From Methanoregula sp. (GTDB taxonomy: Archaea; Halobacteriota; Methanomicrobia; Methanomicrobiales; Methanospirillaceae), in NCBI GenBank assembly GCA_028679185.1, contig JAJRBZ010000047.1, positions 1 through 39,021 of the forward strand: 39,021 nt of DNA. Direction: 5' to 3'. The notes under the pieces were generated by a model. That model saw only the letters and a program-made list of their open reading frames with translations, was not told the DNA's origin and did not search any database. Each line of letters begins with the position of its first letter. Position 1 is the stretch's first letter. Both the position numbers and the translations under genes were made by a program. Shown here piece by piece: positions 18,319 to 21,649 of this stretch.

Positions 18319-18332
18319 TGACTAAATATGCG
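18319..18332 (+). repeat. left target-site duplication of the casposon-like element
   Basis: TGACTAAATATGCG is identical to 21555-21568, where its last four bases form the 3' end of a tRNA-Leu gene. At this left copy no tRNA follows; the inverted repeat starts at once. Confidence 0.85.
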
Positions 18333-18353
18333 GGGTTATAGGAAGTGCAAAAA
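18333..18353 (+). repeat. left terminal inverted repeat
   Basis: Begins GGGTTATAGGAAGTGC and runs into an A-tract. The reverse complement of 21533-21554 is the same apart from one extra G (TATAGGG for TATAGG). Confidence 0.85.
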
Positions 18354-18428
18354 ATGCCACTCTTTTGTTTCAGGTTGATGTTGTAAGGTTTATTCCTCTT
18401 GAGATGCTAGTATCATATATCCGAAAAA

Positions 18429-18438
18429 TTTTATAAAA
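18429..18438 (+). promoter_or_regulatory. TATA box for the 884-aa surface protein
   Basis: TTTTATAAAA lies about 45 nt before ATG 18479, and AAAAGGAG at 18463-18470 is a good ribosome binding site. It lies inside the mobile element, so the cargo gene brings its own promoter. Confidence 0.55.
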
Positions 18439-18478
18439 CATATTCAACTAATGTCGAATTGGAAAAGGAGTATTGTAG

Positions 18479-21133
18479 ATGAAATTTTGTAAATTAAATA
18501 GCATCTTCATAATAATACTTATTGAGATATTCCTGATGTCTATAGTCGGAAGTGCATCAGCATATCAACTCTATCTCAGTTGTCCCGGATTAGTACAGGT
18601 TGGTACCCCATTAGAATGCTCAATTGACAGCAATTTTCCGGCCGGGACAACCTTTGATGTTGTTATGTACCCGCCAGGATACACTACCATTCCACTCCTT
18701 AGCCAGACCGTTACAATTCAGGACAGTCATGCTACCCGGTATCAGATATTTGATACCACGGGATTATCCGGTGGGCAATACAGAGTAGAGATCCAGTTCA
18801 TCGGTTCTGATGAGGACAGGCTTTCATCTGACTCCGTTACCCTGCAATTGCCCAGACTTCTTGAGTCTCCAATTGCCAACTTTTCTTGCCTCCCTAGAAC
18901 CGGTGTTGCTCCTTTGACAGTACAATTCTCGGACAATTCGACCGGTTCCCCCACAGGCTGGGCATGGTTTTTCGGTGACGAGAATTACACACAGCCTTGG
19001 ACGCTCATGAATGCAAGTGCCGGGTGGTCGAGGAGATATACCCATAGCAGTTTGGTGATGCCGGATGGGAGCATCGTACTAATGGGCGGTTTTGACTGGG
19101 ATTTTAAGAATGACGTGTGGCGGTCGACGGATGAAGGTGCCACGTGGACTGAGATAAATAGTAGCGCCGGGTGGTCAGGTAGACTTCCTACCAGCGTGGT
19201 GATGCCGGATGGCAGTATTGTGCTGATGGGAGGAGGAACATACAGCAATTATAAAAATGACACATGGAGGTCGATAGATAACGGCGCAACGTGGACGCTC
19301 ATGAATGCAAGTGGCGGGTGGTCGGCAAGAATTGGTCATAGCAGTGTAGTGATGCCGGATGGCAGCATCTTACTGATAGGCGGAATAGGTAACAAAGGCG
19401 CAGCGAATGATCTCGTAATGAATGATGTATGGCGGTCAATAGATAACGGCGCAACGTGGATGCTGGTAAATGCGAGTGCCGGATGGTCAGGAAGATCTTT
19501 CCACACTAGTGTTGTAATGGCAGACGGCAGCATTGTTCTGATTGGCGGTAGGGACGATGACATGAACAGTAGAAATGATGTGTGGCGATCAATAGATAAC
19601 GGCGCAACGTGGATGCTGGTAAATGAGAGTGCCGGGTTGTCTCCGAGATGGGGTTACAACGGAGTAGTGATGCCGGACGACAGCATCGTTCTCTTGGGGG
19701 GCACGAATGGTGGCAGCACATATTACAATGACATCTGGCGGTCGACGGATGAAGGTGCAACGTGGGCTTATATGACCGCGACTGTCGGGTGGTCGGCAAG
19801 AGTGGGGTCTAGCAGCGTCGCGATGCCGGATGGCAGCATCGTGCTGATTGGCGGTTGGGACGCCATCTCCAATCTGAAGAATGACGTATGGCGGTTCATG
19901 CCTGCCGGTTCATCGGCACAGAATCCGTCCCATACCTATACCTCGCCTGGAACCTATCAGGTATCGTTGCAGGTATACAATGCCGATGGATACAACAGTA
20001 CGCGGAAGGCAGGGTATATCAACGTAGATGTGAATAACGGAATAGCTATCTTCCGACCATCAACCGGTTACTGGTACTTTGACTACAACGTCGATGGAAC
20101 TGTCGCTAAATCCTTTAGATACGGGGGAAGTACTGACCAGATCATTGTTGGTGACTGGGATGGAGACGGGCTGGATGGGATCGCAATTTTCCGACCTTCT
20201 ACCGGCAACTGGTATTTTGATAATAATCTCGATGGTATAGTGGATCAGTCCTTCAGATATGGTGGAGTTGGCGACCAGATCATTAAAGGAAACTGGGAAG
20301 GAACAAATGACGGGATAGCGATCTTCAGACCTTCGACTGGATATTGGTATTTTGACTACACTCTCGATGGTGTAGTCGATAAATCCTTCAGATACGGTGG
20401 CAGTACTGACCAGATCATTAAAGGGGACTGGGACGGTGACGGGAAAGAGGGGATAGCGATCTTCCGTCCTTCAACCGGGTACTGGTATTTTGATAATAAT
20501 CTCGATGGTATAGTGAATCAGTCCTTCAGATATGGTGAGAGTACTGACCGGATCATAGTCGGAAACTGGCAGGGAACCCAAGACGGAATCGCAATCTTCC
20601 GTCCTTCAACCGGGTACTGGTACTTTGATTACACTCTCGATGGTGTAGTCGATAAATCCTTCAGATACGGTGGCAGTACTGACCAGATCATTAAAGGGGA
20701 CTGGGACGGTGACGGGAAAGATGGGATAGCGATCTTCCGTCCTTCAACCGGGTACTGGTATTTCGATTATGCTCTCGATGGTGTGGTCGATAAATCCTTT
20801 AGGTACGGAGGTAGTAATGACTGGATCATAGTCGGAAATTGGGTACCCCAGCCAACAAAAACAATCACATTTACTCGGGATTTGACCGTTATCCCCAGCA
20901 CAACGGTATATATCCCACTTTTGGGTAAAGTAATCTGGAAGAACGACGATCCCTTAAAGCCCCACGGTATTGCAGCTATTGACGCACAGGGAGCAAAATA
21001 CTTTGGGGGGCTGACTGGTGTTCAAATCCCTTATAAAAAGACCTTCGAGGTTACCTTTGACACAATCGGTACATTCGACTACAAGACAACGTTCCAGCCG
21101 GAAATCACGGGACGAGTATTCGTAACTCAGTAA
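18479..21133 (+). CDS. secreted repeat protein: split PKD, kelch-like repeats, six 45-residue repeats, cupredoxin-like tail
   Basis: The 884-aa protein has an N-terminal signal peptide (residues 1-28, ending SASA) and an immunoglobulin-like region. Next come the first half of a PKD domain (PLTVQFSDNSTGSPTGWAWF), six kelch/BNR-like repeats marked by MPDGSIVLMGG and NDVWRSIDNGATW, and then the second half of the same PKD domain (NPSHTYTSPGTYQVSLQVYN). Six 45-46-residue repeats follow, each with GIAIFRPSTGYWYFD and FRYGGSTDQII, some with a Ca-binding-like DWDGDG. The last ~90 residues resemble a cupredoxin, but the usual Cys and second His of the copper site are absent (DYKTTFQPE). No C-terminal membrane anchor is seen. 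Probably exported; role unknown. It is the only intact gene between the element's inverted repeats. Confidence 0.8.
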   Translation: MKFCKLNSIFIIILIEIFLMSIVGSASAYQLYLSCPGLVQVGTPLECSIDSNFPAGTTFDVVMYPPGYTTIPLLSQTVTIQDSHATRYQIFDTTGLSGGQYRVEIQFIGSDEDRLSSDSVTLQLPRLLESPIANFSCLPRTGVAPLTVQFSDNSTGSPTGWAWFFGDENYTQPWTLMNASAGWSRRYTHSSLVMPDGSIVLMGGFDWDFKNDVWRSTDEGATWTEINSSAGWSGRLPTSVVMPDGSIVLMGGGTYSNYKNDTWRSIDNGATWTLMNASGGWSARIGHSSVVMPDGSILLIGGIGNKGAANDLVMNDVWRSIDNGATWMLVNASAGWSGRSFHTSVVMADGSIVLIGGRDDDMNSRNDVWRSIDNGATWMLVNESAGLSPRWGYNGVVMPDDSIVLLGGTNGGSTYYNDIWRSTDEGATWAYMTATVGWSARVGSSSVAMPDGSIVLIGGWDAISNLKNDVWRFMPAGSSAQNPSHTYTSPGTYQVSLQVYNADGYNSTRKAGYINVDVNNGIAIFRPSTGYWYFDYNVDGTVAKSFRYGGSTDQIIVGDWDGDGLDGIAIFRPSTGNWYFDNNLDGIVDQSFRYGGVGDQIIKGNWEGTNDGIAIFRPSTGYWYFDYTLDGVVDKSFRYGGSTDQIIKGDWDGDGKEGIAIFRPSTGYWYFDNNLDGIVNQSFRYGESTDRIIVGNWQGTQDGIAIFRPSTGYWYFDYTLDGVVDKSFRYGGSTDQIIKGDWDGDGKDGIAIFRPSTGYWYFDYALDGVVDKSFRYGGSNDWIIVGNWVPQPTKTITFTRDLTVIPSTTVYIPLLGKVIWKNDDPLKPHGIAAIDAQGAKYFGGLTGVQIPYKKTFEVTFDTIGTFDYKTTFQPEITGRVFVTQ
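20358..20783 (+). repeat. 273-bp internal tandem duplication
   Basis: The DNA from 20358 to about 20510 recurs almost base for base at 20631-20783. The 273-nt period equals 91 residues, or two protein repeats. Near-identity at synonymous sites points to recent duplication or gene conversion. Confidence 0.75.
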
Positions 21134-21181
21134 AAAAGATCTCATGACCTTTTTTTCAACCTTATCCCTGATTACGAATAC

Positions 21182-21541
21182 TTAACTCGCCTTTACAGGT
21201 TTATCCCATTGATCCAACCGCTTCCTTACATGCTTATTGAGTGTAAACGGTTTATTTGCCTGAGCGTTCTTTTTCATGTAATATAAAGTCCCTTTCGAAA
21301 ACTCCATCTTCTGCCAGTCAACGTAAGAAATGTTAAGAATTTTTTTTCGAACGGTGTCAGAATCGTTACGTTTAACGTTTAATTCAGACGTTAGAACGTT
21401 AAAATTAACGTTATATAACGTTAGAAAACGTACTAACTCTCTTGTTTTTAACGTTATCAAATACCCAAACGATATTTCTTTGTCATGGTATTTTTTGACC
21501 TTGTTCAGCCACATATTTACAGATTGAGTTACTTTTTGCAC
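21182..21541 (-). pseudogene. C-terminal fragment of a Cas1-type integrase (casposase remnant)
   Basis: The 119-residue frame carries the C-terminal helical end of Cas1: FGYLITLKTRELVRFLT, then VRKKILNISYVDWQKMEFSK, GTLYYMKKNAQANKPFTLNK and HVRKRLDQWDKP. Full Cas1 proteins are above 300 aa, and their catalytic Glu, His and acidic residues lie before this part, so the active site is gone. The GTG at 21541 lies inside the right inverted repeat, which implies that a deletion fused the repeat to the gene's 3' end. No other cas gene and no CRISPR array is present. A remnant of CRISPR Cas1 is the alternative; the inverted repeats and target duplication favour a casposase. Confidence 0.75.
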
Positions 21542-21554
21542 TTCCCTATAACCC
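21533..21554 (-). repeat. right terminal inverted repeat
   Basis: Inverted partner of 18333-18353; it ends CCCTATAACCC next to the right target-site copy. Confidence 0.85.
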
Positions 21555-21568
21555 TGACTAAATATGCG
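21555..21568 (+). repeat. right target-site duplication overlapping the tRNA-Leu 3' end
   Basis: TGACTAAATATGCG matches 18319-18332. Positions 21565-21568 are the discriminator base and the last three acceptor-stem bases of the tRNA, so the tRNA gene remains complete on this side. Confidence 0.85.
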
Positions 21569-21649
21569 TGGGGCCGGATTCGAACCGACGAACGCCTGCG
21601 CGACGGGACCCTAAATCCCGCTCCTTTGACCTAGCTCGGATACCCACGC
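21565..21649 (-). tRNA. tRNA-Leu (anticodon UAG)
   Basis: An 85-nt class II tRNA. The acceptor stem GCGTGGG pairs with CCCACGC, with A as discriminator. The anticodon stem CGGGA/TCCCG encloses TTTAGGG, giving anticodon UAG (codon CUA). A variable arm with a CGC/GCG stem and the T arm GTCGG-TTCGAAT-CCGGC follow. CCA is not encoded and no intron is seen. Its 3' end is the insertion target of the casposon-like element. Confidence 0.93.

Follow-up and report, generated by a model that had tools for sequence, protein, structure and literature searches.

A probable internally deleted, non-autonomous casposon beside the tRNA-Leu(UAG) gene of a Methanoregula genome

The window analysed here is a 39,021-nt stretch of a Methanoregula sp. 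genome (contig JAJRBZ010000047.1). Its sole tRNA gene, tRNA-Leu(UAG), adjoins a casposon-derived element of 3,222 bp (18333-21554) that holds one passenger gene and the C-terminus of a casposase (Table 1). The terminal inverted repeats (TIRs) are near-identical, GGGTTATAGG(G)AAGTGCAAAAA, the single indel being one extra G, and the element is flanked by a 14-bp target-site duplication (TSD) that starts with CGCA at the tRNA-Leu 3' end. The first four bases of this duplication are also the final four bases of the tRNA (21565-21568): in tRNA orientation, the tRNA ends with ...CCCACGCA, followed by TATTTAGTCA and then by GGGTTATAGGGAAGTGCAAAAA, and both these 14 bases and the repeat recur, mirrored, at 18319-18353. 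A conserved subterminal AAAAATGCCACTC extends the left TIR to about position 18365, a feature shared with other casposons of the order (ends of L035, L055 and L159 compared). An earlier note had called the locus a decayed casposon on the basis of four signals, the inverted repeats, the 14-bp direct repeat, the overlap of its right copy with the tRNA and a Cas1 C-terminal fragment starting in the right inverted repeat, and all four were recovered.

The chance of such an arrangement was assessed with a pattern consisting of a duplication match of at least 12/14 and an adjoining exact inverted repeat of 10 bp, at most 15 kb apart. The pattern occurs once in the window, exactly at the coordinates of the element, and in none of 200 dinucleotide-preserving shuffles. 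Rfam has no match in the window at gathering scores, and the element has no evident integrase gene.

Cas1, the adaptation enzyme of CRISPR systems, is thought to derive from casposons. The open reading frame (ORF) at 21182-21541 (minus strand) starts inside the right TIR and encodes 119 amino acids that match the solved structure of the Methanosarcina mazei casposase (6OPM, chain residues 305-418, E 5.5e-28). Alignment shows 44-47% identity to the casposases of Methanosarcina and Forterrea, with the invariant runs KILNISYVDW and SKGTL. There is no match to the fragment among the Pfam, NCBIfam and PADLOC profiles; for Pfam this is because the Cas_Cas1 match on an intact casposase stops at residue 299 and nearly all of the fragment, whose first residue is at about 291, lies past that point, so that the profile search proposed earlier as a check of this ORF would have misled. 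A C-terminal helix-turn-helix (HTH) domain sets family-2 casposases apart from CRISPR Cas1 and is needed for integration (PMC6977970). When a full-length casposase was used as query across the order, casposase relatives alone carried on across the HTH domain, and distant Cas1 genes matched only to about residue 347 (one stop-interrupted match reached 377). A predicted model of the fragment has helices at residues 62-70, 73-77, 83-94 and 103-113 (pTM 0.44); its fold search also returned 6OPM on top, but only with E 0.55, so that it adds little. Residues ~291-403 are all that is left of the casposase in the element, and the window has no tblastn match to the family-B polymerase (PolB) of the complete casposon L034 described below: the polymerase and the integrase core are lost, as the earlier note had said.

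Table 1. Coordinates of the element, its target and its genes in the window
Feature	Position	Strand	Evidence
TSD, distal copy, TGACTAAATATGCG	18319..18332	+	14/14 identical to 21555-21568
Left TIR	18333..18353	+	Mirrored copy at 21533-21554
Passenger gene, 884 aa, host-like surface protein: PKD, kelch, repeat region, cupredoxin-like C-terminus	18479..21133	+	Domain and homology searches
C-terminal 119 aa of family-2 casposase (Cas1): end of catalytic part and complete HTH domain, without catalytic core	21182..21541	-	6OPM match, order-wide relatives, alignment
Right TIR, cut after GTGCAAAAA, fused to cas1 codon ~291	21533..21554	-	End comparison
TSD, tRNA-side copy	21555..21568	-	14/14 versus distal copy
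tRNA-Leu(UAG), anticodon TAG, integration target	21565..21649	-	ARAGORN; KUP-type neighbour conserved across genus

Stripped-down copies and relics of casposons sit at leucine tRNA genes throughout the order. Among 232 genomes, with the reversed pattern as control, the junction CGCA-N10-GGGTTATAG was found at 60 places in 41 genomes (4 places for the control) and the distal junction CTATAACCCCGCA at 20 places (0 for the control). Casposons had been described as few in number; for this order, casposon ends are not rare. For half of the ends examined, the start of the repeat lies about 10 nt past a tRNA-Leu called by ARAGORN (anticodons TAA, CAA, TAG, CAG and GAG), and many of the remaining ends stand behind a tRNA-like 3' end or, as tandem insertions, behind another casposon end. 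Most traces are relics with only the tRNA-side end. A full casposon with the same kind of ends, suggested earlier as something to look for in relatives, is present in genome G057 (L034): it has 9,347 bp, a TSD of 14/14, identical 30-bp TIRs (30/30), a methylase/Vsr cargo, a family-B polymerase and an intact casposase (Pfam Cas1 E 1.5e-67, 6OPM E 1.4e-174). A second complete casposon, L142, has 14.3 kb.

The right end of the element records how it was shortened. After GTGCAAAAA, the left end runs into ATGCCACTC, an arrangement shared with other casposons of the order; at the right end, the continuation is GTAACTCAATCTGTAAAT..., which aligns with the casposase codons for KVTEEVN. Intact cas1 genes have GGTGCAAGGAAAATC or similar at that point (L035), so that the break lies in a short sequence common to TIR and cas1. 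Read in this way, the junction indicates a deletion of everything from the inside of the TIR on the polymerase side (TIR_B) to cas1 codon ~291, polB included. In intact elements of the L034 type, polB and cas1 are divergent and internal deletions therefore remove their 5' parts first. The pieces found across the order have this bias: 37 cas1 pieces are C-terminal only and none is N-terminal only, the polB pieces are likewise C-terminal, and in L044/L046 polB codon 647/692 directly faces cas1 codon 170/275-290. An artefact of a C-terminal query was rejected as the cause of the C-terminal cas1 excess, as a full-length query also lists no N-terminal-only piece, and selection for the HTH domain was set aside: polB shows an equal bias, which makes central deletion the simpler cause. 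Erosion from the far side contributes too, because many pieces belong to relics with only the tRNA-side end.

A general rule that a truncated cas1 always abuts a TIR was rejected: it is true for the window, for L055 and weakly for L048, but not for the other pieces. L055 is the second clear case of the window architecture, with 5,065 bp, both ends, a TSD of 13/14 and cas1 codons 342-403 just inside TIR_B. The cargo of L055 (5086-10150) consists of NERD nuclease-related, RDD/TPR, metallophosphoesterase and 2'-5' RNA ligase genes and is possibly defence- or RNA-repair-like.

Neighbour-gene synteny was used to look for an empty site, because the flanking DNA is not alignable. A KUP-type gene adjoins tRNA-Leu(UAG) in the 19 congeners examined; 16 of these have no recognisable casposon end at +10, and three have casposon ends unlike those of the window. 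At the orthologous tRNA, G161 has a casposon end and a polB remnant, G174 has a casposon end, and G162 has two short casposon-like elements in tandem, of ~0.6 and ~1.1 kb and without cas1 or polB (L155 3031-4789), which are casposons of the size of miniature inverted-repeat transposable elements (MITEs). In G191 (L224), genes of the left side of the window also follow the tRNA, without a casposon end, and the synteny is thus two-sided. Judged by gene order, the orthologous site supports an insertion in the window.

The element is thus very probably an internally deleted, non-autonomous casposon, whether the deletion preceded or followed the insertion. Its casposon origin is supported by the 6OPM match, the M. 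mazei signature described below, the complete relatives and the empty or differently occupied orthologous sites. That part of the earlier reading stands; 'decayed' does not, and 'internally deleted, non-autonomous' fits better because ends and TSD are essentially intact. We do not file the element as a casposon proper because an intact casposase and polB, two defining features of an autonomous casposon, are absent. It has the ends and TSD of a casposon without a functional casposase, and its descent from a full casposon is visible in the casposase fragment fused to the TIR and in the full elements with the same end type.

In the history that we propose, the parent would have been a family-2 casposon with the order TIR_B, polB (3' end outward), HNH, HTH, cas1 (divergent from polB), cargo and the opposite repeat (TIR_A). 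A central deletion, probably at the short shared sequence (TIR ...GTGCAAAAA; cas1 ...GGTGCAAGGAAAA...), would have removed the part from the inside of TIR_B to cas1 codon ~291, a mechanism that we infer from the junction, and left TIR_B, the HTH-bearing C-terminus of the casposase, a single passenger gene and TIR_A. A casposase, either its own before the deletion or that of another casposon acting in trans after it, would have attached both ends at the tRNA-Leu(UAG) 3' end; the tRNA stayed intact and 14 bp were duplicated. TIR_B faces the tRNA, the reverse of the orientation of most relatives.

Several observations weigh against this reading. A search of 108 genomes of the family gave no further copy of the truncated form, nor of its TIR variant, and movement in this form is therefore not demonstrated. 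The own genome, a 97% complete assembly, is without an intact casposase, the fragment is ~50% identical to its nearest relatives, its placement in a tree is poorly supported, and its exact parent is not among the casposons found. The intergenic DNA at the flanks has diverged too far for an alignment of the empty site base by base, and a search of the genus with the left-flank DNA gave no alignable empty site; for the empty tRNA-Leu(UAG) site proposed as a check, the evidence is thus gene order, with 16 congeners that have no recognisable casposon end. No parent casposon was found when the own genome was searched with the TIR variant and with the casposase, and viral contigs yielded no relative.

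A complete casposon may instead have been inserted here and shortened in place, so that the present form has never moved; we give this variant serious weight, somewhat below even. It agrees with the single copy of the element and with the frequency of loss in place, as seen in the many relics with only the tRNA-side end. A TSD of 14/14 and TIRs that are one indel apart suggest, however, that little time has passed since insertion, and the deletion is large, ends within a TIR and leaves an uninterrupted ORF of 119 codons; moreover, further short elements with both ends are known (L055, L155). None of these points is decisive, and we lean only slightly towards a deletion earlier than the insertion.

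The natural mini-casposons (that of the window, L055 and the two L155 elements) could make up a separate transposing class in Methanomicrobiales that resident casposases move in trans, that carries host- or defence-like genes between tRNA-Leu sites and in which some members keep the HTH domain as a regulator. We consider this rather unlikely. It is testable, because artificial M. mazei mini-casposons that have only TIRs and TSDs move in vivo (PMC10359463).

The 119-aa ORF could also have been retained as an HTH protein, for example a repressor of transposition, that is read together with tRNA-Leu. The tRNA 3' end is 24 nt upstream of the ORF on the same strand, the HTH domain is complete in an open frame with helices predicted in the model, and C-terminal pieces predominate in the order. 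However, central deletion of divergent genes accounts for this predominance, with polB biased alike, several of the pieces elsewhere carry stops, the pTM of the model is low, and no DNA binding by the isolated HTH domain of M. mazei was confirmed in the published study (PMC6977970); a retained protein is therefore very improbable. Short repeats turn up often in a window of 39 kb, but the shuffles and the recurrence of the same ends at tRNA-Leu genes across the order leave virtually no room for a chance coincidence of repeats and Cas1 piece. Elements of tyrosine recombinases are also drawn to tRNA 3' ends, and the protein is Cas1-like, but a CRISPR cas1 remnant beside an unrelated integrative element of this kind is just as negligible: the HTH domain, which distant Cas1 genes do not match, makes up much of the fragment and matches 6OPM, no integrase gene is apparent in the element, and a 14-bp TSD with CGCA beside a TIR is unlike the mark of a tyrosine recombinase.

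The passenger gene sits where L034 has its cargo, between the 3' end of cas1 and the TIR. It is a mosaic of four parts with separate closest relatives in its own genome (C63, C41, C89) and among kelch-type surface proteins of the genus: residues 11-156 have ~65% identity to a genus-wide conserved protein of 280 aa from the own genome, residues 130-518 resemble the kelch regions of large surface proteins, residues 478-799 have 78% identity to a protein of the own genome and residues 789-883 have 80% identity to part of another. Since the genus has many shuffled surface proteins of this kind, we do not claim that the element captured the gene.

The own genome has a second casposon end (L161 16926, minus strand; G000:C8:17417-17439), which reads CGCACTTATTACCG and then GGGTTATAGGTATGTG after a tRNA-like 3' end; no distal end was found for it. 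It also has a second remnant of a casposase HTH domain, decayed and with a stop codon (L053 9928-10026, minus strand; G000:C69:18427-18546). Back-to-back casposon ends on one CGCA target are present at L037 16993-17011, L142 2478-2493, L150 4739-4754 and L130 16929-16944; these are tandem insertions at one site and array-like. In L124 (genome G001), three casposon ends point in one direction within 2.4 kb (2947, 3179 and 5361), and the search of this genome gave no casposase relative that extends over the HTH domain.

Together, the window locus and the ~60 tRNA-Leu-type junctions of a single order offer a natural series of elements in complete, deleted and relic form, some of them inserted in tandem at one target, for the study of target rules, of the loss of autonomy and of array-like growth at a fixed site. 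In the limited literature searched, no description of a natural non-autonomous casposon was found; the work published there treats elements with a complete casposase.

The M. mazei casposon has a 31-bp TIR, GGGATATAGGTAACTC... (GGGATATAGGTAACTCAAAAAAACGCAACGC), and a 14-bp TSD that starts with CGCA and whose first four bases are the end of tRNA-Leu (PMC6977970, PMC10359463). This casposon, MetMaz-C1, and its family-2 relatives (Hickman et al. 2020, PMC6977970; PMC10359463) share with the window element the TIR start GGG(A/T)TATAGG, the CGCA 14-bp TSD and the tRNA-Leu 3' end with its 4-bp overlap, and the MetMaz-C1 casposase has a C-terminal HTH domain like that of the fragment. In contrast, MetMaz-C1 spans ~10 kb and has eight genes, its cas1 and polB being intact, whereas the window element, from another archaeal order, has 3.2 kb with a casposase C-terminus and one passenger gene. 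L034 shares the target rule, the TIR core and the cargo position described above, but differs in its 9,347 bp, its autonomous gene set, its methylase/Vsr cargo, its opposite orientation and its location at tRNA-Leu(UAA). Outside casposons, internal-deletion derivatives of DNA transposons (Ds, MITEs, TIMEs) keep their ends, have lost the transposase gene by central deletion and are presumably moved in trans; central deletion and kept ends are common to them and the window element, which differs in its Cas1-type casposase and its tRNA-specific target. The artificial M. mazei mini-casposon pRS1520 (PMC10359463) has, like the window element, TIRs and TSDs around foreign genes without a casposase, and forms a tandem at its target; pRS1520 was engineered, whereas the window element is natural and keeps a fragment of its casposase.

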